This document shows positions 1-11,565 of a DNA stretch of 42,048 nt, piece by piece. Every line of letters starts with the position of its first letter. Position 1 is the stretch's first letter. Below the pieces are notes generated by a model, which saw nothing but the letters and a program-made list of their open reading frames with translations, was not told the DNA's origin and ran no database searches. The DNA is taken from NCBI GenBank assembly GCA_021778115.1, contig JAJYCS010000014.1, positions 1-42,048 of the forward strand. The letters are read 5' to 3'. The position numbers and the translations under genes were made by a program. Source of the stretch: Deltaproteobacteria bacterium (GTDB lineage: Bacteria > Desulfobacterota > Desulfuromonadia > Geobacterales > Pseudopelobacteraceae).

Positions 1-633
1 GCCCTGTCGCTTTCTGCGTTAACGGCCTGGAGCACTACGCCGGTCAATGCTGCCGAGCTTGTGGTCTCCCGATTTGCAACCGAAGCGCTTAACGGCTGGG
101 AGAGCAAGAGCTTTAAGGGAACTACCGAGTACCGTATCGTCCAGGAGGATGGACGCCGTGTGCTCAAGGCCCATGCGCAAGGGGCAGCCTCCGGCCTCAG
201 CAAAAAGCTGAGCTTTGATCCCCACACCTACCGTTACCTGAGATGGAGCTGGAAGGTGGCCGGCACGATTGCGAGCGGTAACGAATGGGCCAAACAGGGG
301 GATGACTGCGCTGCCCGGATCTATGTGGTTTTTCCGGGGCGTTTCTTCTGGCAGATGCGGGCCTTGAACTACATCTGGGCCAACAAGCTGCCTAAGGGAA
401 GATTTCTCCCGGACGCCTTCACTGCCAATGCCATGCTGATTGCGGTTGAGTCCGGACCTGGCAGGGCAGGACAGTGGGTCAGTGAGCAACGGGATATTCT
501 GGCTGATTATCGTCGCGTGTTCGGCGAAGAGCCGTCTGCTGCCGGAGCGATTGCCATTATGACCGATACCGACAATACCGGTAGCGAAGCTACCGCCTGG
601 TACGGTGAGATCACCCTCTCGACAAAACCATGA
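1..633 (+). CDS. DUF3047 family exported protein (5' partial)
   Basis: The reading frame is open from base 1, so the start lies outside the window. The first visible residues (ALSLSALTAWSTTPVNAA, then ELVV) look like the hydrophobic core and small-residue cleavage site of a signal peptide, so the protein is probably periplasmic. The rest, about 190 residues, resembles DUF3047: a Trp-rich beta-sandwich-like domain with RWSWKV and a late ATAWYGEITL. Its function is unknown. The stop codon overlaps the next start in an ATGA arrangement, so it is the first visible gene of a five-gene operon with a radical SAM/methyltransferase fusion and two transferases. The family call comes from recalled motif style and is moderately sure; partial status is certain. 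Confidence 0.72.
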   Translation, partial: ALSLSALTAWSTTPVNAAELVVSRFATEALNGWESKSFKGTTEYRIVQEDGRRVLKAHAQGAASGLSKKLSFDPHTYRYLRWSWKVAGTIASGNEWAKQGDDCAARIYVVFPGRFFWQMRALNYIWANKLPKGRFLPDAFTANAMLIAVESGPGRAGQWVSEQRDILADYRRVFGEEPSAAGAIAIMTDTDNTGSEATAWYGEITLSTKP

Positions 634-1322
634 ACAAAGACAAGCTGATGATCCTGATGGTCGTGCTGCTGACGATCGGCCTGTTCTTCTACCTTGACCT
701 GGGGCGTTATCTGACGATTGAGCAGCTTACAGCCAACCGCCACCAGCTCCAGCAGTACTATGCCGGGCACGCCGTGCTGATGGTTGCGGTCTTTATGGCG
801 ATCTACATCATCCAGACCGCATTCTCCCTGCCCGGCGCTACGATTCTATCGCTGGCCGCCGGCGCCGTATTCGGCCCTTGGCTGGGGACGCTGTATGCCG
901 TTACCGCCGCTTCCATAGGTGCTGCCCTGGCCTTTCTGGTTACTCGGTACCTGCTGCGTGACCTGGTTCTGAAGCGGTTTGGCAGCAGCCTGGAAGGAAT
1001 CAACGAAGAGCTTGCGATACGGGGGATCAACTACCTGCTGTTCCTGCGGCTGGTGCCGATCTTCCCGTTCTTTCTGATCAACCTGGCCGCCGGGCTTACC
1101 CGCCTGCGGCTTTCCACCTTTGTGCTGGGCACCTTTTTCGGCATCATCCCCGGCGGGTTCGTCTACGTCAATGCCGGCGCCAGTCTGGCCGCCATAAGCA
1201 GTCTGTCGGACAGCGCATCGCCCCGGGCACTGGGTGCCTTTGCCCTGCTGGGACTGTTTGCCCTGATCCCGGCGCTGTATGCACACGTTACCACCAGAAA
1301 AACGGCTGCCCATGACCTTTAA
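630..1322 (+). CDS. TVP38/TMEM64 (VTT-domain) membrane protein
   Basis: This 230-residue integral membrane protein of the VTT (SNARE-associated, DedA-like) family has an N-terminal membrane helix, then the family hallmarks: a Pro-Gly turn in FSLPGATILSLAAGAVFG (about residues 66-83), and the second conserved block RLVPIFPFFLINLAAG with Arg-Pro-Pro-Asn around residue 145. Known VTT proteins include lipid scramblases and flippases, and TVP38-type members recur in arsenosugar-type clusters; the substrate here is unknown. The start overlaps the upstream stop by 4 nt and the end overlaps the next gene by 11 nt, so translation is probably coupled. Confidence 0.85.
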   Translation: MNKDKLMILMVVLLTIGLFFYLDLGRYLTIEQLTANRHQLQQYYAGHAVLMVAVFMAIYIIQTAFSLPGATILSLAAGAVFGPWLGTLYAVTAASIGAALAFLVTRYLLRDLVLKRFGSSLEGINEELAIRGINYLLFLRLVPIFPFFLINLAAGLTRLRLSTFVLGTFFGIIPGGFVYVNAGASLAAISSLSDSASPRALGAFALLGLFALIPALYAHVTTRKTAAHDL

Positions 1323-4296
1323 GCCCTCCCGCTGGACCCGCTATACGGTTGCTGATACCGCCATCTGGCTCTGCCCGAATCGCCCAGCCTGGTTTGTCCC
1401 GAACAGCGCCGGTGACCAACTGCTGTGTAACGCCGATGCCTCTGGTGACGGTCCCTTTCGGCGGCGCCTGCCGGACCTGCCGGAAGACCGTTACCCGGGG
1501 CGCCAAACCCTGATCAGCGGGCAGATGCCGCTGAAAGAGCTGTGGCTGCATATTACCGACCGCTGCAATCTTTCCTGTAGCCACTGCCTGTTCTGTTCCG
1601 GCCCGGATCAAGCCCGCCGGCTTTCGCTTGAGCAGATAGCCTCCCATCTACAGGCCGCAGCCGCATTGGGCTGTCGGCTGTTTGCCCTGACCGGTGGCGA
1701 GCCGCTGGTGCATCCAGATTTCGGGCAGATCATCGAGCAGATTCTGGCGATTCCCGACAGCAGGATCGTGCTCCTGACCAACGGTTTGCTTGCAGCAGAA
1801 CGGTTGCAACCGGACTGGCCAGACGACCGGCTGCACCTGCAGATCAGTCTGGACGGCAGACCGGAGCATCATAATGCCATCCGGGGAGCTGGGACGTTTG
1901 AGCGGCTTGAACGGGAACTGAATCAGCTGCGTAGCCAAGGTTGGCGTTTTACCTTAAGCTGCTGCGTAACTACAGACAATGCCGCCGATCTGACCTGGCT
2001 GGTTGACTATGCCGCTGATCAGGGGGCAGCCGCTGTCCACCTGATGTGGCACGTTATCCGGGGGCGGGGCAGTGACCAGCAGCATGCAGCGCCGCTTGCC
2101 CTGCTGGGGCCGGTGCTGGCCGCCCAGGTTGTTTCCGAACAGCGGGGCATCGTCATTGACAACATCGAAAACCTGAAAGGCCAGATCTTCTCTCCCCCCG
2201 GCACCATCCATGACGGCTCCAGCGCCGGCTGGGAGGCAGCGGCCATCGGGCCGGACAATCGGCTATATCCATCGGCTGCAACCATCGGATGTGATGAGCT
2301 TGCCACCCCGCTTGATCAGGGGCTTACCCAGGCCTGGCAGGCCAGTCCGGTGCTGACCCGCATCCGTCAGCAGAGTGTGGTGCAGCTTGCTGACCCCTGG
2401 CGGTACCTGTTGGGGGGGGGCGATTTTGACCATTGCTGGCACCATGCCCACTGCTTCATTGGAGCTGATCCTTATCAGCCACTGCTTGAACAACTGGCAC
2501 TGTGTCTGATTCAGCAAGCAGCCACCAGACTGCCGGAACAGAAACAGCCGGGCCTGCGCCTCAAGATGGGGGAGCTCGTGGTCAGCTGCGGCAGTCACGG
2601 GCCGGTGGCGCTCTGTCATACCAACTGCCTGCTGTCGTTGGATACTCCGATGGATCATCGTGGGCAGGTGGGGCGCTACTACGCCGCCGCTGCCGGCGAC
2701 AAACGGCTGGAGATCCTGAATCCGGTCCACTACGACTCACAGTTGATGACCCATATCCCCCCGGCCTACCGTTTCCGGGGCTATGGCTGCGGCAGCCCGG
2801 TGCTGGATGCCGGTCTGAAACCGGGTGAACGGATGGTTGATCTGGGCTGCGGCAGCGGGGTGGAGTGTTTCATTGCCGCCCGTCTGGTAGGCAGCAAAGG
2901 ATTGATCACCGGGGTTGATATGCTGGAGCCGATGCTGGCACTGGCGGAGCAGGGGGCTTCCGAGGTCCGGCGCGAACTGGGCTACGACAATGTGTGCTTT
3001 GCACAGGGGTACCTGGAACAGCTGCCGCTGGCGGATGGTCAGCAGGATCTGGTGGTCTCCAACTGTGTGCTGAACTTGTCGGCTGACAAGCGGATGACTT
3101 TTCGGGAGATCCTGCGGGTACTGCGCCCCGGCGGCAGACTGGTGGCGGCGGATGTGGTCTGCGAGATCGAGCCGGATGCCACCATCCTGAACGATGCAAC
3201 CCTGCGAGGGGAGTGTATCAGCGGCGCCCTTACCCAGAAAGACCTGCTGGGGATTCTGGAGGAAACCGGCTTTACCGGTTTTAAGCTGCTTAAACGGTTG
3301 CCGTACCGGGTGGTGCAGGGGCATCCGTTCTTTTCCCTGACCTTTATTGCATACAAGCCTGAGCAGAAGCCAGGCTGGGTAACCGTGCTGTATCCCGGTC
3401 CGGCAGCATCGTTGCGTACCGCTTCGGGTAGTGTGCTGCTACCCGGTCAGACCATGCAGATACCCCGATCAGACGCAGAACTGCTGGGGGATCTGGTCTG
3501 GGTGCTGGACGCAGACGGTTTTGTCACCAATGTGTCCCTTGAGGCCGGGGCAAACTGCGCCCTGCCGCCGGAGGCGCGTGCCAAGAGCGCACCGCCGGCG
3601 ACTGAACGCCGGCAGTCCGGCTGTATGGTCTGTGGCGCGGCGCTGGTCTATCACCCCGCCGAGCAACAGGCAACCTGCCACTACTGCGGCCGATTGTTGT
3701 CCAGCAACGCCTGGTGTGAGCAGGAGCATTTTGTCTGTGATGCCTGCCATACCGGTGACACGCTGAAACTGATCGAACACCTCTGTGGTGCCTCCACCAC
3801 CACCGATGCCATCCAGCTCTTCAGCAGCATCCGGCAGCATCCCTCCATGCCGTTGCACGGCCCCCAGTACCACGCCCTGGTGCCGGGGGTGCTACTGGCC
3901 TGCCTGCGTAATGCCGGTCATCCGGTCAGTGATGCACAGCTCCATGCCGCCATCCAGCGTGGGGCCGAGGTCTGCGGCGGCAGTTGCGGGTTCTGGGGGG
4001 TCTGCGGGGCAGCAACCGGTGTCGGTATCGGTTTCAGTGTTCTGTTGGAAACAACGCCGCTCAAGGCAGGCGCCCGCCAGACCGTGCAGGGGATCGTCCA
4101 GCAGGTGCTGGCGGAGATTGCCGGGTATCAGGCTGCCCGCTGCTGCCAGCGGGACTGCTGGATCGCCCTGCGGATCAGTATGCGGCTGGCTACGGAACGG
4201 TTTGACCTGCGTCTGCCGACCGTGGAGCCGTTTGCCTGCACCCAGATGGCCCGCAACAAGGAGTGTCTGGGGCTGGACTGCCCGTTGTGGCCATGA
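1312..4296 (+). CDS. Radical SAM / ArsM-like methyltransferase / DUF5714 three-domain fusion
   Basis: A 994-residue protein with at least three modules. Residues about 75-330 are a radical SAM domain with the CxxxCxxC cluster motif at C85, C89, C92 and TGGEP at 127-131. Residues about 485-690 are a class I methyltransferase with motif I VDLGCGSG at 509-516; it resembles arsenite methyltransferase ArsM, and its YGCG (C493), SNCVLNLS (C585) and GECISGA (C635) blocks match the places of the ArsM metalloid-binding cysteines. Residues about 765-994 are a Cys-rich DUF5714 region opening with a zinc-ribbon-like CxxC at 771/774. I chose the ATG at 1312, which overlaps the previous gene by 11 nt; an in-frame ATG at 1279 has no better ribosome site. 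ATGA coupling to the following transferase supports one pathway. Domain calls are solid; the substrate (arsenic, selenium or other) is inference. Confidence 0.85.
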   Translation: MTFKPSRWTRYTVADTAIWLCPNRPAWFVPNSAGDQLLCNADASGDGPFRRRLPDLPEDRYPGRQTLISGQMPLKELWLHITDRCNLSCSHCLFCSGPDQARRLSLEQIASHLQAAAALGCRLFALTGGEPLVHPDFGQIIEQILAIPDSRIVLLTNGLLAAERLQPDWPDDRLHLQISLDGRPEHHNAIRGAGTFERLERELNQLRSQGWRFTLSCCVTTDNAADLTWLVDYAADQGAAAVHLMWHVIRGRGSDQQHAAPLALLGPVLAAQVVSEQRGIVIDNIENLKGQIFSPPGTIHDGSSAGWEAAAIGPDNRLYPSAATIGCDELATPLDQGLTQAWQASPVLTRIRQQSVVQLADPWRYLLGGGDFDHCWHHAHCFIGADPYQPLLEQLALCLIQQAATRLPEQKQPGLRLKMGELVVSCGSHGPVALCHTNCLLSLDTPMDHRGQVGRYYAAAAGDKRLEILNPVHYDSQLMTHIPPAYRFRGYGCGSPVLDAGLKPGERMVDLGCGSGVECFIAARLVGSKGLITGVDMLEPMLALAEQGASEVRRELGYDNVCFAQGYLEQLPLADGQQDLVVSNCVLNLSADKRMTFREILRVLRPGGRLVAADVVCEIEPDATILNDATLRGECISGALTQKDLLGILEETGFTGFKLLKRLPYRVVQGHPFFSLTFIAYKPEQKPGWVTVLYPGPAASLRTASGSVLLPGQTMQIPRSDAELLGDLVWVLDADGFVTNVSLEAGANCALPPEARAKSAPPATERRQSGCMVCGAALVYHPAEQQATCHYCGRLLSSNAWCEQEHFVCDACHTGDTLKLIEHLCGASTTTDAIQLFSSIRQHPSMPLHGPQYHALVPGVLLACLRNAGHPVSDAQLHAAIQRGAEVCGGSCGFWGVCGAATGVGIGFSVLLETTPLKAGARQTVQGIVQQVLAEIAGYQAARCCQRDCWIALRISMRLATERFDLRLPTVEPFACTQMARNKECLGLDCPLWP

Positions 4297-4982
4297 CCAT
4301 CTCCATTGTCATACCGGTTGTGAACGAACAGCAGCGGATCAATAGCCTGATTGAACATTTGAAGGGGGTGGTGGGCAGGGGCCAGGAAATACAGGAACCT
4401 GAAATCATTGTGGTTGATGGCGATGCTGAAGGTTCAACCTTGTCAGCTGTAGCCGATTCGCACGTTATTGGCATTACGGCGCCTCAAGGGCGGGGAGTCC
4501 AGCTTGCAGCAGGCGTCTCCCACGCAACCGGCGAGATTATCCTGCTGCTGCACGCCGATACCCAACTGCCTGAGCATGGAGTTGCACGAGTCGCCGATGC
4601 CGTTGCAGGCGGTGCTGACTGGGGGGCCTTCAGGCTGGGGATTGATGCCCCCGGATGGGCCTATCGTGTTATTGCGTGGTCTGTTGATGTGCGCTGTAAA
4701 CTGTTTGCACTGCCCTACGGCGACCAGGCTGTCTTTGTCACCCGTGCTGCTCTGGAGAGCGTCGGCGGTATCCCCCCCATCCCTCTGATGGAGGATGTTG
4801 AACTGGCCTGGCATCTGCGTAAGGCCGGCAAGCGTTTTATCTTGCTGCCGCAACGGATACGGACATCGGCGCGGCGTTGGCAGAGAGACGGCATCGTTCG
4901 CCGCACCCTGCACAACTGGTGGCTGCTGGTGCGCTACCTGACAGGCGTCGATCCGGAACACCTGGCAAAGGAATATCGATGA
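4293..4982 (+). CDS. TIGR04283-type glycosyltransferase (rSAM/arsenosugar-associated)
   Basis: A 229-residue GT-A fold family 2 glycosyltransferase. It opens with ISIVIPVVNEQ (residues 3-13), has the nucleotide-sugar Asp region EIIVVDGD (37-44) and the metal-binding HAD (88-90 in LLLHADTQLP), then GDQAVFV near 143 and the acceptor-base motif MEDVEL at 166-171. The layout matches the TIGR04283 family, named for its link to radical SAM/selenodomain proteins and arsenosugar synthesis. It starts in an ATGA overlap with the fusion gene and ends in another with the next transferase. An upstream in-frame GTG at 4263 is possible but would overlap by 34 nt. The donor and acceptor are unknown. Confidence 0.87.
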   Translation: MTISIVIPVVNEQQRINSLIEHLKGVVGRGQEIQEPEIIVVDGDAEGSTLSAVADSHVIGITAPQGRGVQLAAGVSHATGEIILLLHADTQLPEHGVARVADAVAGGADWGAFRLGIDAPGWAYRVIAWSVDVRCKLFALPYGDQAVFVTRAALESVGGIPPIPLMEDVELAWHLRKAGKRFILLPQRIRTSARRWQRDGIVRRTLHNWWLLVRYLTGVDPEHLAKEYR

Positions 4983-5596
4983 ATCATCCCGCGGTCGTTG
5001 TCCTGTTTGTCAAACCTCCAATCCCTGGTCGGGTAAAGACCCGCCTGGCCAGGGATATTGGCGCAGAGGCCGCCTGCAGCATCTATCGAGCCCTGGTGGA
5101 GCGGGTTCTGCAGCAGATAGAGGCCAGCGGGTTTCCGCTGGCCCTGTTTTTTGACGGCGATGAGGATCAGGTGCCTGACCGTTGGAAGCGGCATGCCCGA
5201 TGCTGTGTACAGCAGCAGGGGGGGGATCTTGGGGGGCGGATGGCGCATGCCTTTCGGCAGTTGTTTGATGCCGGGTATCAATCGGCGGTGCTGTGCGGCA
5301 GCGACATTCCTGGTATTGATGCTGCGTATCTGCGGCATGCTGGGCAAGCGTTGCAACAGTCTGGCATGGTGATCGCCCCGGCACATGACGGTGGCTACTG
5401 CCTGATCGGATTTGTCTCTGAGCGGTTTACTCCTCTGGTGTTTGACCAGATACGCTGGAGTACGGATCAGGTACTGCAGCAAACCCTCGACCGCTGTAGC
5501 CAGGTGGGGCTGCAGCCGATGCTGCTGACGCTGCTGCGGGATATCGATACGGTTGATGATCTGCGTGAGGTGGCGCCGGAGATGGTGCAGGAGTAG
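4979..5596 (+). CDS. TIGR04282/DUF2064-type transferase (CofC/MobA-like fold)
   Basis: This 205-residue protein has a nucleotidyltransferase-like fold. The NTP-binding loop VKPPIPGRVKTRL is at residues 11-23, GSDIPG at 107-112 is the metal-binding region, and HDGGYCLIG follows about 40 residues later. These are typical of TIGR04282 (DUF2064) proteins, annotated as glycosyl or guanylyl-type transferases that accompany TIGR04283 partners. The start is set by a 4-nt ATGA overlap with the upstream transferase. It is the last gene of the operon; its stop codon lies inside the left arm of the terminator hairpin at 5593-5639. Exact chemistry is not established. Confidence 0.87.
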   Translation: MNHPAVVVLFVKPPIPGRVKTRLARDIGAEAACSIYRALVERVLQQIEASGFPLALFFDGDEDQVPDRWKRHARCCVQQQGGDLGGRMAHAFRQLFDAGYQSAVLCGSDIPGIDAAYLRHAGQALQQSGMVIAPAHDGGYCLIGFVSERFTPLVFDQIRWSTDQVLQQTLDRCSQVGLQPMLLTLLRDIDTVDDLREVAPEMVQE

Positions 5597-7492: not shown

Positions 7493-7680
7493 ACGGATAG
7501 CTTTCCTTTCAGTGGTTCAGAATACCTGCCAGATGTAGCAGAATCAGCCCGGGAAGTCTACTGCTTTGGTCTGGTAACACCCTGTTTTCGTATGGTTAAA
7601 CCGTGGCATGCATGAACAGGTCTGGCAATTCTGCGGCCACATGCTATAAGACCACTAGGTATCGTGCATCAGGAGGCGTC
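7493..7680. promoter_or_regulatory. Divergent intergenic region leuC / larB
   Basis: These 188 bp separate divergent leuC and larB and must hold both promoters. For larB a weak sigma70-like pair can be drawn: TGGCAA at 7623-7628, 16-bp spacer, TATAAG at 7645-7650. AGGAGG at 7671-7676 lies only 4 nt before the GTG start at 7681 and decides that start over an in-frame ATG at 7603. For leuC, AAGGAAAG lies just before the start on the minus strand. I see no clear leader peptide or attenuator. Confidence 0.4.
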
Positions 7681-8457
7681 GTGCAGGAGTCATTCATTCG
7701 AGAGGTGTTGGAGCAGATCGCACGTGGCGAGGTGAGTGCTGACCAAGGGGTTGAGCGGCTGCGTCATCTGCCCTATGAGGATATCGGCATCGCCCAGGTG
7801 GACCACCATCGCAGTCTGCGGCAGGGACAGCCGGAGGTGATCTTCGGCCAGGGCAAGAGTGTGGAGCAGATCAGCCGGATCATGGAGACCATGATCAAGC
7901 GGGGCAGCAACCTGCTGGTGACCCGTCTTGACAAAGATAAGGCGGCCGCGTTGCAGGCGGTCTTTCCTGCTGCGGTGCTGCATGCCGAGGCGCGCTGCCT
8001 GACGCTGGAAACCACTGCCGTTGAACCCAGTGGCTCCGGCACGATCCTGGTGATCTCCGCCGGCACCTCAGACATCCCGGTGGCCAGCGAGGCGGTGGTT
8101 ACAGCCCGCTTTCTGGGCAATCGGGTCGAGCAACTGTTTGACGTGGGGGTGGCCGGCATCCATCGACTGCTGGCACGGGTGGAGCTGCTCAGATCGGCCA
8201 CGGTGCTGATCGTGGTGGCCGGCATGGAGGGCGCCCTGCCCTCGGTGGTGGGCGGTCTGGTGGACCGGCCGGTGATTGCCGTGCCGACCTCGGTGGGCTA
8301 CGGCGCCTCCTTTGGCGGTATCGCTGCCCTGTTGGGGATGCTCAACTCCTGTGCCAGCGGGGTAACGGTGGTCAATATCGACAACGGTTTCGGCGCGGCC
8401 TGTGCCGCCAGCAGGATCAACTGTTCGATAGCGGCGGTAACGTCGCAGCATTGTTGA
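7681..8457 (+). CDS. larB: Nickel pincer cofactor biosynthesis protein LarB
   Basis: A 258-residue protein of the LarB family, which carboxylates and hydrolyses nicotinic acid adenine dinucleotide as the first step of nickel-pincer nucleotide synthesis. The N-terminal part has a short helical region; residues about 120-250 form a PurE (AIR carboxylase)-like domain with [10 protein letters not shown] at 127-136 and [13 protein letters not shown] at 201-213. C224 in LNSCASG sits where the LarB cysteine that forms the substrate adduct is expected. The GTG start at 7681 has AGGAGG upstream. The usual partner larC is displaced to 10384 by an integron remnant. larE and a lactate racemase larA are not in the window. 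Confidence 0.93.
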
Positions 8458-8496
8458 CATGCAATCTGTCGGTGTCAAAGGGGTGGCAGCCCGGTG

Positions 8497-8620
8497 TTTA
8501 TACGATAGTAAGTCGGCGACACCGGAGCGGCGCTGCCTGACTTGCCTGCCAACTGACGACTGAGGCACTGGTGAAATTCAGCGCACAGTAAGCCAGACCG
8601 AGTTGATTCAGCTGTTAGGG
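8497..8620 (-). repeat. attC-like recombination site of the brnTA cassette (degenerate)
   Basis: Read on the minus strand, the site starts with CCCTAAC (complement of GTTAGGG at 8614-8620), which includes the brnA stop codon. From about 8512 to 8620 it matches the second site (9235-9366) at most positions, estimated by eye at about 80%. The far end lacks the expected GTTAGGG box, so the distal R' half-site seems mutated or lost. The left boundary is approximate; 8458-8496 holds nothing I can assign. Confidence 0.7.
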
Positions 8621-8920
8621 GGAAGGCGTTGGCGTATGAGTTTTTAGCCAGTCACGGAGGGCATTGTTCATGCGGGTTTGCCAGCCTTTGCCGGTTGCCT
8701 TGAATGCGGCCAGAATTTCAGCGTCAAAACGGATGTTTTGGGCAATTTTGGTGCCGCTGCCAAGTGGGCGCCCAGGTTTTGGAGTAAGCATTTCCTTGAC
8801 CACTTCTTGATTAAATAATTGCGGCAGCACTTCGCTGGCAGGCTTGAACTGTTTGAAGTCTTCGGTGGTAAGCTCTCGGACTTCTCCGTCCTTGTTAGTC
8901 AATGGTGAGCGGCTTGCCAT
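8615..8920 (-). CDS. brnA: BrnA-family antitoxin
   Basis: A 101-residue protein matching BrnA antitoxins: a toxin-binding N-terminal part and a C-terminal ribbon-helix-helix-like DNA-binding segment (KIAQNIRFDAEILAAFKATG, about residues 58-77, then GWQTRMNNALRDWLK). BrnA neutralises the RNase BrnT and represses their shared promoter. It overlaps the end of brnT by 26 nt, so translation is probably coupled. Its stop codon lies within the R'' box of the downstream attC-like site, marking the pair as an integron cassette. The PGRPLGSGTK linker before the DNA-binding part is typical of this group. Confidence 0.9.
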   Translation of the reverse strand: MASRSPLTNKDGEVRELTTEDFKQFKPASEVLPQLFNQEVVKEMLTPKPGRPLGSGTKIAQNIRFDAEILAAFKATGKGWQTRMNNALRDWLKTHTPTPSP

Positions 8921-9173
8921 GTTTTTCTGCCTCCCTTCTGTTAGCTTTTCTGAAGCTGATTACTCGGATTGCGTCACTCGTTGGGGTGAAGCAAAGCACA
9001 TGTAAACGGCTGTCGAGATACCCGACGGCAATATAGCGTGCTTCAGGATATTCATTGCGAAGATCGGATGCGATAACCGCTGAACTCCAGTCAAAATCGC
9101 TTGCACGCTCAAATGACAGCTGGCGTTCACACAGATTTTTGTCTGATTTGGCTTGATCAAATTCGATCTTCAT
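8895..9173 (-). CDS. brnT: BrnT-family ribonuclease toxin
   Basis: A 92-residue BrnT toxin (RelE-like fold RNase). Family features visible: an opening MKIEFDQAKSDKN, the central RYIAVGYLDSRLHVLCFT, and the C-terminal IRVISFRKANRREAEKHG, which carries the Arg/Arg/Glu residues typical of BrnT (ISxRxAxxxE). It lies upstream of brnA in the standard toxin-first order. The ATG at 9173 has only a weak ribosome site. The AT-rich upstream region with two direct repeats is a plausible autoregulated promoter, so the cassette would not need an integron promoter. It appears intact. Confidence 0.9.
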   Translation of the reverse strand: MKIEFDQAKSDKNLCERQLSFERASDFDWSSAVIASDLRNEYPEARYIAVGYLDSRLHVLCFTPTSDAIRVISFRKANRREAEKHGKPLTID

Positions 9174-9232
9174 GTAGATATTTGTGGCAACAAAAATTAA
9201 TTATGTCAATATAAATGTTGCAACAAAAATAA
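9174..9232 (-). promoter_or_regulatory. brnTA promoter/operator with two direct repeats
   Basis: An AT-rich segment directly upstream of brnT carries two copies of GCAACAAAAAT-type sequence, at 9187-9197 (GCAACAAAAAT) and 9220-9230, spaced 33 bp (about three helical turns). On the minus strand a perfect TTGACA lies between the copies; a TTGCAA / ATTAAT pair with 16-bp spacing is another reading. BrnA proteins are known to repress their own promoters, so the repeats are operator candidates. Exact promoter hexamers are uncertain. Confidence 0.5.
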
Positions 9233-9234
9233 CC

Positions 9235-9366
9235 CCCTAACGTTCACGAGATAACCGACTGGCGACACCGGAGAGGTGCCGCCTGACTAACCTGCCAACT
9301 GCCGACCTGGACACTGCTGAACTTCAGCGCACAGTTAGCCAGGCCGAGTTGATTAAGCCGTTAGGG
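9235..9366 (-). repeat. attC-like recombination site of the HNH cassette
   Basis: This 132-bp site is bounded by CCCTAAC (9235-9241) and GTTAGGG (9360-9366), which are complementary. The outer 30-35 bp of both ends show imperfect inverted symmetry (for example CGACTGGC against GCCAGGCCG), and the centre holds a short hairpin-like GGCGACACC / GGTGCCGCC. Simple paired ends plus an imperfect stem are the hallmark of integron attC sites. The stop codon of the upstream HNH reading frame lies in the R'' box. The last R' base (G) departs from the usual GTTRRRY consensus. Confidence 0.75.
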
Positions 9367-9828
9367 GTTGGCATTGGCAACCAACTTGGATAGCTCTTCA
9401 ACCGTGAGCATTGGTGATGTGCGGTGTATGATTCTGTGGCAGTTTGAGCACAGAACCGCCAAGTCTTCGAGAGCTGTGGTGACAGATTCCGACGATGCTG
9501 ACAATGGCACCAAGTGGTGAACTTCGCAGAAACCCGCACCGATGGGGCCGTATGTTGTGAAAAAGTTAAAACCGCAGACTTCACAGCATAATGCCCCCTT
9601 GCTATTGAAAATTGCAGTTTTCTTTGCTTCTATGATGGTTCGATTACGCTCACGGCAAAGATGCGAGACAAGACGTGTTGCGCCTTCAGTTCCGGCTGTA
9701 GGGAGATCAATGTCGGGCAGTGCAGCGGGTTTGGTTGGTTCAATTCCTTCGCCAAGAAGCGCAATAAGAGATTGAACAACGGTCTCGTCGTTAAGCCTGT
9801 TAAAACCAATACTGAAATTACTTCCTGA
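9361..9828 (-). pseudogene. HNH endonuclease, 5'-truncated integron cassette gene
   Basis: Translating the minus strand from 9828 to the TAA at 9361-9363 gives an open frame of 155 codons. It contains a clear HNH nuclease domain: CEVCGFNF (CxxC), then FCEVHHLVPLS (double His), and VLCSNCHRIIHR (Asn, Cys pair and final His). No ATG, GTG or TTG start occurs before the HH motif, and an in-frame stop lies at the upstream palindrome, so the 5' end is missing. The domain itself looks undamaged. It probably encoded a restriction-type or homing-type DNase of about 200-300 residues carried as a cassette; it is now likely silent unless an unusual start is used. Confidence 0.75.
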
Positions 9829-9864
9829 TTAGCGCCAATCTGCGGAAGATTGGCGCTAATCAGG
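9824..9864. repeat. Perfect 18-bp inverted repeat at the HNH/intI junction
   Basis: Arms 9824-9841 and 9847-9864 are exact reverse complements with a 5-nt loop (GCGGA). It sits precisely where the HNH gene (minus strand) and the integrase remnant (plus strand) both lose their 5' ends. No T-tract follows on either side. It could be a deletion scar with foldback duplication, or the remains of a regulatory hairpin. Confidence 0.8.
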
Positions 9865-10331
9865 TACCCTTATTACTGCCGGTGGCTTGCCGAGTGTCTG
9901 GCGCTGCGGGTTAAGGATGTTGATCTGCAGCAGTTTCTGCTTGTGGTGCGAGGCGGCAAGGGGGACAAGGACCGCCGGACCATGCTGCCAACAACCCTTC
10001 TGGATGATTTGACATCCCAGCTGGATGCGGTACGATCCCTGTACGATCAGGATAGAAAAAACAGTGTCCCCGGTCTGTTGTTACCAGGGGCGCTGGAGCG
10101 GAAATATCCCAATGCCGGCACGGAGTGGGGCTGGTTCTGGCTCTTTCCCGGCAGGCCTCCATCCATACCCTGCGTCACAGCTTCGCAAGGCACTTGCTGG
10201 AAAAGGGGTATGATATCCGCACTATTCAGGAGCTTTTGCGGCACACCAATCTGCAGACCACCATGATCTATACCCATGTCGCCAAGCGTAATATCCTGGG
10301 CGTAATCAGCCCCCTTGACAGCCTTGTCTGA
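9865..10331 (+). pseudogene. intI: Integron integrase IntI remnant (truncated, frameshifted)
   Basis: Two frames together give the C-terminal part of an IntI tyrosine recombinase. Frame one (9865 to about 10150) reads LAECLALRVKDVD, then GGKGDKDRRTMLP and [20 protein letters not shown], the last being characteristic of integron integrases. Frame two (about 10150-10331) reads [36 protein letters not shown] and SPLDSLV, with the HxxR and catalytic Tyr boxes. Between WLFP and HTLRHSF roughly 35-40 residues expected in IntI, including its family-specific extra segment, are missing, together with a frame change. The N-terminal half (about 180 residues) is absent. The protein cannot be functional. 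Orientation is opposite to the cassettes, as in intact integrons. Confidence 0.88.
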
Positions 10332-10383
10332 CTTTGCCGGCCATCCTGAGCCGGTATCAGCCAACGAACAACAGGTACCGATA

Positions 10384-11565
10384 ATGACTATCCTGTATCT
10401 TGACGCAACCGCCGGTATTGCCGGCGACATGACCGTGGCGGCCCTACTGGACCTGGGGCTGCCGCTTGACTATCTGCGACAGGAACTGGGAAAGCTCGGC
10501 CTGCCGGAGGGATCATACGCCCTCGATGAGGAACAGGTCCAACGTCAGGGGATGATCGGGCGGCACTTTCTGGTTCACGTAACGGCTGAAGACCATCATC
10601 ACGTGCATCATCACCACCACCATCGCCGTTACGCCGATATCCTCGCCATGATTGCAGACAGTCGGTTGTCGGCACGAACGAAGGAGTTGGCCCACGCCAT
10701 CTTTTTGAAGCTGGCCGAGGCCGAGGCCCTGGCCCACCAGGTGGCGGTGGATGAGGTGCAGTTCCACGAGGTGGGGGCGGTGGACAGCATCGTCGACATC
10801 GTGGGCACGGCCATTGGTCTGGAATGGCTGGGGGTTGGGCAGGTCTACACCTCGGTTGTCCCCCTTGGAGGCGGTTTCGTGGAGACGGCCCATGGTCGTC
10901 TGCCGGTGCCGGCGCCGGCCACGGCCGAGTTGTTGAAGGGCTTGGCGGTGCATGGCCGCTGCGGTGATGGCGAGCGGGTGACCCCCACCGGCGCCGCCAT
11001 TCTGGCGGCCCTGGCAGAGCCGGTATCCTGCATGCCGGGTATGAAAATCGAGGCCATCGGCCATGGCGCCGGCACTAAAGATTTTAGTGATTGCCCCAAT
11101 ATCCTGCGCGGTTTTTTGGGGGTGCTTGTGGGGGCTGCGACCGATGTCGTGTTGGAGCTTTCCTGCAACCTGGATGACGTGACACCTGAGGTGATCGGCT
11201 ATACCGTGCAGCGGCTGCTGCAGGCCGGCGCCCTGGATGTGTGGACCACGCCGATCCAGATGAAGAAGAATCGACCGGCGGTCATGCTTGCACTGCTCTG
11301 CACAGCGGATCAACAGGCGGCATTGGCGGAAATCATGACGACCGAGACCGGTACGCTGGGAGTGCGGATGCAGGTGATGGAACGTCTGCTGCAGGAGCGG
11401 CAGGTGGTGGAGCGGGCGACGAGCTACGGTATGGTACGCTATAAGCAGAGCGATTGTACCCTGAAGCCGGAGTTTGACGATTGCCGGAGGATCGCTGAGG
11501 AACAGGGGCTACCGTTGCGGGAGGTACAGCGGCGCCTGCTGGAGGAGTTAGGCGATGCCGTATGA
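10384..11565 (+). CDS. larC: Nickel pincer cofactor biosynthesis protein LarC
   Basis: A 393-residue LarC, the CTP-dependent cyclometallase that inserts nickel into the pincer nucleotide. The family opening is seen as [12 protein letters not shown] (residues 5-16). Residues 71-80 are His-rich (nine of ten are His), a likely nickel-binding loop. [14 protein letters not shown] and TPTGAAIL follow, and the C-terminal domain has [12 protein letters not shown]. It is one continuous frame, unlike the Lactobacillus gene that needs a frameshift. I chose the ATG at 10384 because it gives the canonical N-terminus; the frame extends to a TTG at 10315 inside the integrase remnant. It overlaps pncC by 11 nt. 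Loss of contiguity with larB may have changed its expression. Confidence 0.94.

Follow-up and report, generated by a model that had tools for sequence, protein, structure and literature searches.

We describe here a three-domain fusion protein of 994 residues, encoded on the forward strand (positions 1312–4296) of contig JAJYCS010000014.1 from a Deltaproteobacteria bacterium of the family Pseudopelobacteraceae (class Desulfuromonadia, phylum Desulfobacterota; assembly GCA_021778115.1), whose 42,048 nucleotides make up the window that we analysed. The protein joins a radical S-adenosylmethionine (SAM) half, with RRE-like and SPASM-like segments, to an ArsM-type methyltransferase and to a zinc-ribbon followed by DUF5714. 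Sequence comparisons suggest that it is a bifunctional organometalloid synthase, a non-orthologous replacement of ArsM plus ArsS that would methylate As(III) and then attach a SAM-derived radical group; we give this reading a probability of about 0.55. As in the original prediction made from this DNA, we infer that one polypeptide may perform the steps of the separate ArsM and ArsS proteins. The conserved cysteines and the fold are consistent with this, and the reading gains support because the fusion and ArsS nearly exclude one another and because the fusion occupies the genomic slot of ArsS.

Domain architecture and metalloid cysteines

The open frame of the fusion begins upstream, at 1279; we prefer the methionine at 1312 as the start because many homologues align from it. 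Pfam profiles match as Radical_SAM (69 bits), Methyltransf_31 (104 bits) and DUF5714 (PF18978, 191 bits, cut-off 26.2), and an AlphaFold model built with 16 sequences has a mean predicted local distance difference test score (pLDDT) of 81.5 and a predicted template modelling score of 0.72. Frame, profiles and model thus bear out the three domains originally assigned to 1312–4296. Of the 99 NCBIfam models (June 2026) that match the fusion, the best 25 all score below their own cut-offs. The whole architecture is kept among homologues of about 1000 residues at 40–81% identity, and this full-length conservation, together with the invariant cysteines, argues against a chance join.

The fusion was found in 51 of 244 genomes of the class, each counted on the strength of a single match reaching 500 bits or more, and in 23 of 285 genomes of the phylum outside the class. 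Several fusions are split over contig ends: the class count includes a genome with residues 1–494 only, up to a contig end (G159), and two with an in-frame stop (G136, G109), and excludes one with residues 883–992 only (G167). The phylum count includes one genome matched only over residues 552–992 (G495) and two with DUF5714 in another frame (G394, G454). In the latter two (loci L261 and L268, respectively), a radical SAM–ArsM frame of 741–761 residues is accompanied by a separate, overlapping DUF5714 frame, representing either a natural split or an assembly frameshift. Conservation and gene neighbourhoods below refer to 46 class loci, of which some genomes supply two, and to loci from 20 of the 23 phylum genomes.

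The ArsM-type methyltransferase occupies residues 467–667 (2710–3312), as placed by profile, phmmer, fold and tree. A phmmer search against PDB sequences matched it to CrArsM (5evj, E 8.5e-34) and CmArsM (4kw7 and 4fr0, E about 2e-29). Residues 471–720 of the model superpose on CrArsM 5evj with Z 26.2 and a root-mean-square deviation (rmsd) of 2.3 Å over 215 residues at 36% identity, and on CmArsM 4fr0 with Z 26.7 and rmsd 6.8 over 263 residues; fold matches to ArsM and AS3MT entries as a whole lie at Z 22–27 and 28–36% identity. The structural comparison that had been suggested as a check therefore places this half on ArsM crystal structures. An ArsM C-terminal segment follows (residues about 668–750; 3313–3561), into which the NF040538 match extends as far as residue 720, and which is kept in two-domain fusions and in the Nitrospira ArsM.

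Within this half, the three cysteine blocks lie where they had been placed: C493 in YGCG (2788–2790), C585 in SNCVLNLS (3064–3066) and C635 in GECISGA (3214–3216) fall on CmArsM C72, C174 and C224 in the phmmer alignment, with the proposed 50-residue spacing between the last two. That they cluster is a judgement based on the alignment and on the fold match. All three are invariant in 46/46 class and 20/20 phylum sequences, so that the survey for homologues lacking them found the triad retained throughout the fusion family. ArsM has been defined by at least three of four metalloid cysteines (PMC5552862), and the invariant C72, C174 and C224 equivalents supply three. The three-domain fusions have no cysteine at 469/470 (0/46 class, 0/20 phylum), where two-domain relatives retain an N-terminal ArsM-like CC pair (9/9); a cysteine at 473 occurs in 28/46 class and 4/20 phylum rows, the window's fusion having histidine there. 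The 469/470 place is presumably the equivalent of the CmArsM C44 region. The fusion scores 192–195 bits with the ArsM model NF008823, below its 263-bit cut-off. On its cysteines and fold, this half would be expected to bind and methylate As(III).

Exchange with ArsS

ArsS (TIGR04167) is present in 147 of the same 244 class genomes, and its distribution is nearly complementary to that of the fusion: three genomes have both (G077, G141, G159), 48 the fusion only, 144 ArsS only and 49 neither (Fisher p 5e-20, uncorrected for kinship). Put differently, ArsS occurs in 3/51 fusion genomes and in 144/193 of the others. Counted by genus (n=79), seven have both, 12 the fusion only, 46 ArsS only and 14 neither (p 0.002), and in five genera (g1, g2, g41, g42, g51) one or the other enzyme is found depending on the species. 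In the phylum outside the class, ArsS is found in 0/23 fusion genomes and in 78/262 others (p 0.0009). Two further phylum genomes (G296, G497) match through an unfused methyltransferase of the fusion's type, and each of them carries ArsS on a different contig.

A scan of named genomes matched at least 590 stretches, of which the best 80 were kept. Among the matches listed, three-domain fusions occur in Desulfobulbia (for example Desulfogranum japonicum DSM 18378), a Chitinivibrionales metagenome-assembled genome (MAG) and others, and at least nine fusions of 824–980 residues consist of two domains, without DUF5714, in Nitrospinota, Acidobacteriota, Nitrospirota, Wallbacteria and an archaeal MAG. 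The survey of fused and split homologues that had been proposed thus turned up a conserved three-domain family, two-domain fusions and an unfused ArsM accompanied by ArsS. ArsS is encoded in 0/8 of these genomes with a three-domain protein (one of which, L141, ends before DUF5714), in 2/9 with a two-domain protein and in 10/11 with the unfused ArsM of the fusion's type (L154–L158, L160–L165), the lone exception being a small Nitrospinota record (L154). These counts were not pooled with the phylum sample, since some genomes may coincide. At 10 of 12 unfused-ArsM loci (L155–L158, L160–L165), ArsS starts 11–430 bases downstream on the same strand, and in L161 it is truncated where the locus stops; L159 is too short to show it and L154 has none. 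Two of these ArsS proteins, scored with the family model, reach 450 and 462 bits. A search for stand-alone ArsM with NF008823 at E 1e-66 matched 14/244 genomes, and it is uninformative on separate ArsMs in fusion genomes because matches are few and five of them are the fusion itself. Several ArsM-like matches contain one in-frame TGA (G175:C67:30954-31628, G143:C78:5001-5678, G028, G150 and others) and are possible selenoprotein ArsMs.

The two enzymes also exchange within one gene row. In the window, the operon is tight: the genes for a VTT/TVP38-type membrane protein (630–1322, forward; PF09335, 93.5 bits), the fusion, a TIGR04283 glycosyltransferase-like protein (4293–4982, forward; 229 bits, cut-off 182) and a TIGR04282 transferase-like protein (DUF2064; 4979–5596, forward; 197 bits, cut-off 134) overlap at start and stop codons, preceded by a DUF3047 protein truncated at the edge of the window (1–633, forward; PF11249, 222 bits). 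The row DUF3047-VTT-[fusion]-TIGR04283-TIGR04282 compares with ArsM-aquaporin-MerA-like-(small frame)-VTT-[ArsS]-DUF3047-TIGR04283-TIGR04282 in a genome of the same family (G042). Within the window's genus, G033 has DUF3047-MsrA-c89-MerA-like-sterol desaturase-VTT-[fusion], G009 MsrA-c89-MerA-like-VTT-[ArsS] and G108 MsrA-MerA-like-VTT-[ArsS]. A second slot repeats the exchange: TIGR04282-DUF169-GNAT-MBL-flavin reductase is followed in G033 by a second fusion, 58% identical, and in G141, after one extra frame, by ArsS.

At least two of 13 partner genes, counted in stretches up to about 17 kb, accompany the fusion at 18/46 loci and ArsS at 24/40, compared with 0/20 random stretches and 0/15 loci of solo DUF5714; for VTT the figures are 14/46, 19/40, 0/20 and 0/15. 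The partners were picked from fusion and ArsS loci, which favours both over the random set (20 stretches, each taken from a large contig at a fixed position, with a TIGR04283 match in one). Fusions from outside the class were not used for this choice, and of these 12/20 have at least one partner and 9/20 at least two (for example TIGR04283-TIGR04282-fusion-VTT-MerA-like in L255). The first 20 ArsS loci were chosen deliberately, as near kin of fusion genomes or with ArsM on the contig, which likewise favours them over the random set, and the other 20 by going down the ranking; at least two partners occur in 14/20 and 10/20, respectively. To check what the partners are, we ran family models on individual examples, except for MsrA, GNAT and c89, which were named by eye; the 'MerA-like' partner fits best the FAD-containing oxidoreductase model NF004991, over its cut-off, and falls below the MerA cut-off. 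TIGR04283 was discarded as a presence/absence marker, as 223/244 class genomes match it, 184 of them above the cut-off, and longer frames account for many of the matches. As side observations, an ABC substrate-binding protein is encoded 11 bases before a second, divergent type of fusion (about 42% identity) in L070–L072, ABC genes also lie just upstream of a close fusion in L032, and in several of L061–L064, L066, L068, L069 and L090 the fusion is near TrmO-like and tungstate/molybdate-binding-type ABC genes, as judged by eye.

Ancestry of the radical SAM half and the DUF5714 module

The CxxxCxxC motif claimed at residues 85–92 is present as C85/C89/C92 (1564–1587) in 45/45 class rows reaching this position and in 20/20 phylum rows, within a radical SAM core of residues 79–255 (1546–2076) defined by family and Pfam profile matches. 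Residues 6–407 of the model align with residues 2–450 of CteB (5wgg; Z 27.6, rmsd 3.5 over 384 residues, 17% identity), and by this match the modelled half has the RRE, barrel and SPASM fold. It includes a tentatively assigned N-terminal RRE/PqqD-like region (about residues 6–60; 1327–1491) and a degenerate SPASM-like segment with a GGGDxDH motif (residues 300–404; 2209–2523), and is followed by an inter-domain motif with C426 and C439 (2587–2634), invariant in 46/46 class and 20/20 phylum sequences. The Pfam PqqD profile does not match the first 83 residues of the window's fusion, and gives 13 bits, below its cut-off, in one two-domain homologue. The best fold matches are CteB, anSME, TigE, ChlB, SuiB and SkfB; the best-scoring families are Rv1681 (NF049973, 96 bits), NirJ2, AhbD, mycofactocin maturase and StsB, each matched by 12/12 members. 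The cysteines of the SPASM auxiliary cluster are not kept in the three-domain class rows (C375 in 5/46, C381 in 4/46). By these comparisons the radical half belongs to the RRE/SPASM lineage, with its auxiliary-cluster cysteines lost.

The fusion is not an ordinary ArsS, a candidate rejected on two grounds: the TIGR04167 model matches weakly in 11/12 members, with 53–55 bits for the window's fusion against a cut-off of 300, and in profile comparison (hhalign) only 147 core columns align. In a tree of 82 methyltransferase domains, three-domain, two-domain, Nitrospira-type and ArsS-locus ArsMs separate from 24 solo ArsMs with support of 100/98 (every second solo ArsM had been dropped, 48 to 24; rows L139, L141 and L143, labelled as beside ArsS, are cut or partial three-domain fusions). 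Because of this grouping, the family scores of the radical half and its core-only alignment with ArsS, we conclude from the sequences that the fusion arose when an ArsS-associated type of ArsM was linked to a different radical SAM enzyme, the product taking the place of ArsS. The two-domain proteins keep C85/C89/C92, C439, C493, C585 and C635 in 9/9 and C426 in 6/9, and a SPASM-like CxxC...CGGG is visible by eye in 5/9 rows. This pattern suggests that the radical SAM–ArsM join is the older unit, to which DUF5714 would have been added later, with loss of the auxiliary cluster.

The C-terminal module consists of a zinc-ribbon (residues 771–812; 3622–3747), also covered by a match of the MbdU model to residues 761–992, and DUF5714 proper (residues 821–993; 3772–4290). 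Cysteines C121, C426, C439, C493, C585, C635, C749, C771, C774, C789, C792, C802, C809, C812 and C892 are invariant in 46/46 class sequences, those from C771 to C812 forming the ribbon, and C944, C945, C976, C985 and C990, like the C85/C89/C92 set, in 45/45; C825 and C898 are kept in 42/46, and C121 in only 14/20 phylum sequences. DUF5714 modelled in isolation (29 sequences) is confident, with pLDDT 91.9, and has no match above Z 4.5 among PDB folds and no viral match at E 0.001, which is no proof of a new fold. An hhalign match to C_GCAxxG_C_C (PF09719; probability 66%, E 5.6e-5) covers only 76 columns and is suggestive of a possible distant relationship to that redox family. DUF5714 is also unfused, in 15 loci that we retrieved.

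Three observations on DUF5714 stand apart from the fusion. In L074 (12094–14295, reverse strand; G072), a second DUF5714 copy at an unfused-DUF5714 locus is the C-terminal part of a TrsS radical SAM protein (TrsS 654 bits, over cut-off; DUF5714 190 bits), an independent radical SAM–DUF5714 fusion in the same bacterial family. In L079 (1221–3057, forward strand; G240), ArsM is followed in a row by a small protein that by eye resembles AhpD and then by DUF5714, ArsM and AhpD being also fused in selenoproteins. In L084 (6406–8504, forward strand; G148), DUF5714 is directly followed by a C_GCAxxG_C_C plus DUF4213/DUF364 'heavy-metal chelation' protein. Elsewhere in the window, at 7603–11565, what we take by eye to be larB- and larC-like genes look as if they had been split by an insertion, since an integrase fragment and a toxin-antitoxin pair of the BrnT/BrnA type lie between them.

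Proposed route, alternatives and relation to known systems

Based on these comparisons we can present a rough proposal. C493, C585 and C635 of the ArsM half would bind a trivalent metalloid (most likely As(III)), which this half would methylate with SAM, as the cysteines and the fold lead us to infer. The methylated arsenical would then pass to the radical SAM half without leaving the polypeptide, an internal transfer between sites that to our knowledge is known for no other metalloid enzyme. There, a [4Fe-4S] cluster on C85/C89/C92 would cleave SAM, and the radical would be added to arsenic; it is most likely 5'-deoxyadenosyl, as in ArsS, because of the slot substitution and the mutual exclusion. 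Through its cysteines the zinc-ribbon/DUF5714 module could keep the arsenical bound or reduce it again, as carrier or reductant, which is a guess and the weakest step of the scheme. The TIGR04283 and TIGR04282 proteins may finish an arsenosugar-like product.

Several points weigh against this proposal. Both the methyltransferase and the radical activities are predicted from sequence. The radical half aligns with ArsS over the core only, an alignment that does not reach the C-terminal cysteines conserved in 11 ArsS sequences. Fusion and ArsS coexist in the three class genomes named above and in 2/9 two-domain genomes. No partner gene accompanies the fusion at 19/46 class and 8/20 phylum loci, although the same is true of 14/40 ArsS loci. 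Beside the three-domain fusion, an ArsR-like gene was found at 1/46 class and 1/20 phylum loci and Acr3, ArsC and PiT at none, using as queries proteins named by eye from Nitrospira-type loci. The same search gave 0/20 for random stretches, ArsR at 2/15 solo DUF5714 loci, Acr3 at 2, ArsR at 1 and PiT at 2 of 40 ArsS loci, PiT at 3/9 and ArsR at 1/9 two-domain loci, and ArsR at 7, ArsC at 3, Acr3 at 1 and PiT at 4 of the 12 unfused-ArsM loci, which had supplied the queries. As ars genes are rare at the fusion, the link to arsenic rests on the ArsM half, the relatives and the exchange with ArsS. Finally, the 'arsenosugar' names of TIGR04282 and TIGR04283 presumably rest on association with ArsS, so that this context is not independent proof of arsenic.

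The group transferred may be a different one. Outside the core the radical half shows no homology to ArsS, and both halves might act in turn on arsenic with the second adding 3-amino-3-carboxypropyl, as ArsL does, or some other carbon radical, to yield a different organoarsenical still usable by the same partners. ArsL, another radical SAM enzyme acting on arsenic, does make a different C-As bond (PMC8552651, PMC12159101), but the slot exchange and the common partners suggest the same or a close product, and we regard another group as unlikely, if well worth bearing in mind. The fold and family matches listed above would also suit a maturase of ribosomally synthesised and post-translationally modified peptides, with RRE and SPASM ancestry, that modifies a peptide or its own cysteine-rich domain while the ArsM half provides detoxification as a side activity. 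Such a maturase, however, has to do without the SPASM cysteines in the three-domain proteins and leaves the exclusion of ArsS and the common slot unexplained, and seems to us improbable.

A metalloid other than arsenic, such as selenium, antimony, tellurium or mercury, could be considered in view of the MerA-like partners, the scarcity of ars genes beside the three-domain fusion and the related ArsM-like and MbdU double selenoproteins, to which no substrate is assigned (PMC13188914). Yet the cysteine triad and the tree position are those of ArsM, an aquaporin-type channel lies beside 6/40 ArsS and 4/46 fusion loci, and ars genes accompany the unfused relatives; the chance of another metalloid is accordingly small. 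That the fusion instead degrades organoarsenicals, by radical C-As cleavage coupled to methyl transfer, is very improbable: radical chemistry can go both ways, but nothing specific points to breakdown, the operon carries transferase-like proteins, and ArsS, the partner replaced, is reportedly biosynthetic (Cheng 2021, as cited in PMC12159101).

What has been described of arsenosugar-type chemistry involves ArsM together with ArsS. If the fusion acts as the bifunctional synthase proposed here, organoarsenical synthesis in these bacteria would be commoner than surveys of ArsS show, since 48 of the 244 class genomes have the fusion without ArsS, and the radical C-As step of an arsenosugar-type pathway would have evolved twice. 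It is possible, though we say so tentatively, that a second, independently evolved radical SAM lineage, of RRE/SPASM ancestry and with its auxiliary clusters lost, forms C-As bonds in a polypeptide that also methylates arsenic, with DUF5714 as a built-in metalloid carrier, which would amount to a one-enzyme route from As(III) to complex organoarsenicals in anaerobes. The fusion would offer a single-protein system for C-As bond formation and a first functional handle on DUF5714, and close species that differ in the slot occupant provide a ready comparison.

In the open-licence literature of PubMed Central, which mostly leaves out subscription journals, none of the titles listed describes this fusion, and the word DUF5714 occurs in none of its papers. 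A 2021 study by Cheng is said to deal with ArsS, and one by Yao in 2024 reportedly with ArsL. According to a review, the C-As bonds of methylarsenicals, arsenosugars and arsinothricin all come from SAM-dependent enzymes, adenosylation proceeding via a radical SAM enzyme (PMC12159101).

Among systems with a DUF5714-like part, the TrsS protein (NF045646) of L074 also combines it with a radical SAM domain, but of the TrsS type and without ArsM; a TrsS/DVU_1556-type methyltransferase system (NF045646, NF045667) was rejected for the fusion, at 46 and 81 bits against cut-offs of 490 and 155. The MbdU double selenoprotein (NF045648) resembles the zinc-ribbon and DUF5714 part (132 bits, cut-off 600) but is a different protein overall. 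The RRE/SPASM enzymes (CteB, anSME, PqqE, Rv1681, NirJ2, AhbD) have in common with the fusion the fold over residues 6–407, CxxxCxxC and the best family scores; the fusion differs in lacking conserved auxiliary-cluster cysteines, in being joined to ArsM and in its arsenosugar-type gene context. With ArsM and AS3MT (NF008823, NF038099; CmArsM, CrArsM) it has the fold, three of the four metalloid cysteines and the C-terminal segment in common, but its methyltransferase sits between a radical SAM half and DUF5714 and has no cysteine at the N-terminal CC place. ArsM has been joined to other partners, a regulator, to judge by its name, in ArsRM of Brevundimonas (PMC10190100) and selenophosphate synthetase in the arsM-SelD of Naegleria (PMC5552862), neither being a radical SAM enzyme. 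ArsS (TIGR04167) has the radical SAM core, the slot, the partner genes and the pairing with ArsM in common with the fusion, which lacks the C-terminal cysteine set of ArsS and has RRE-like and SPASM-like segments instead. The closest parallel to the proposed succession is arsinothricin biosynthesis, in which ArsL and then ArsM, a radical SAM enzyme and a methyltransferase, act on arsenic (PMC8552651); those are separate proteins.

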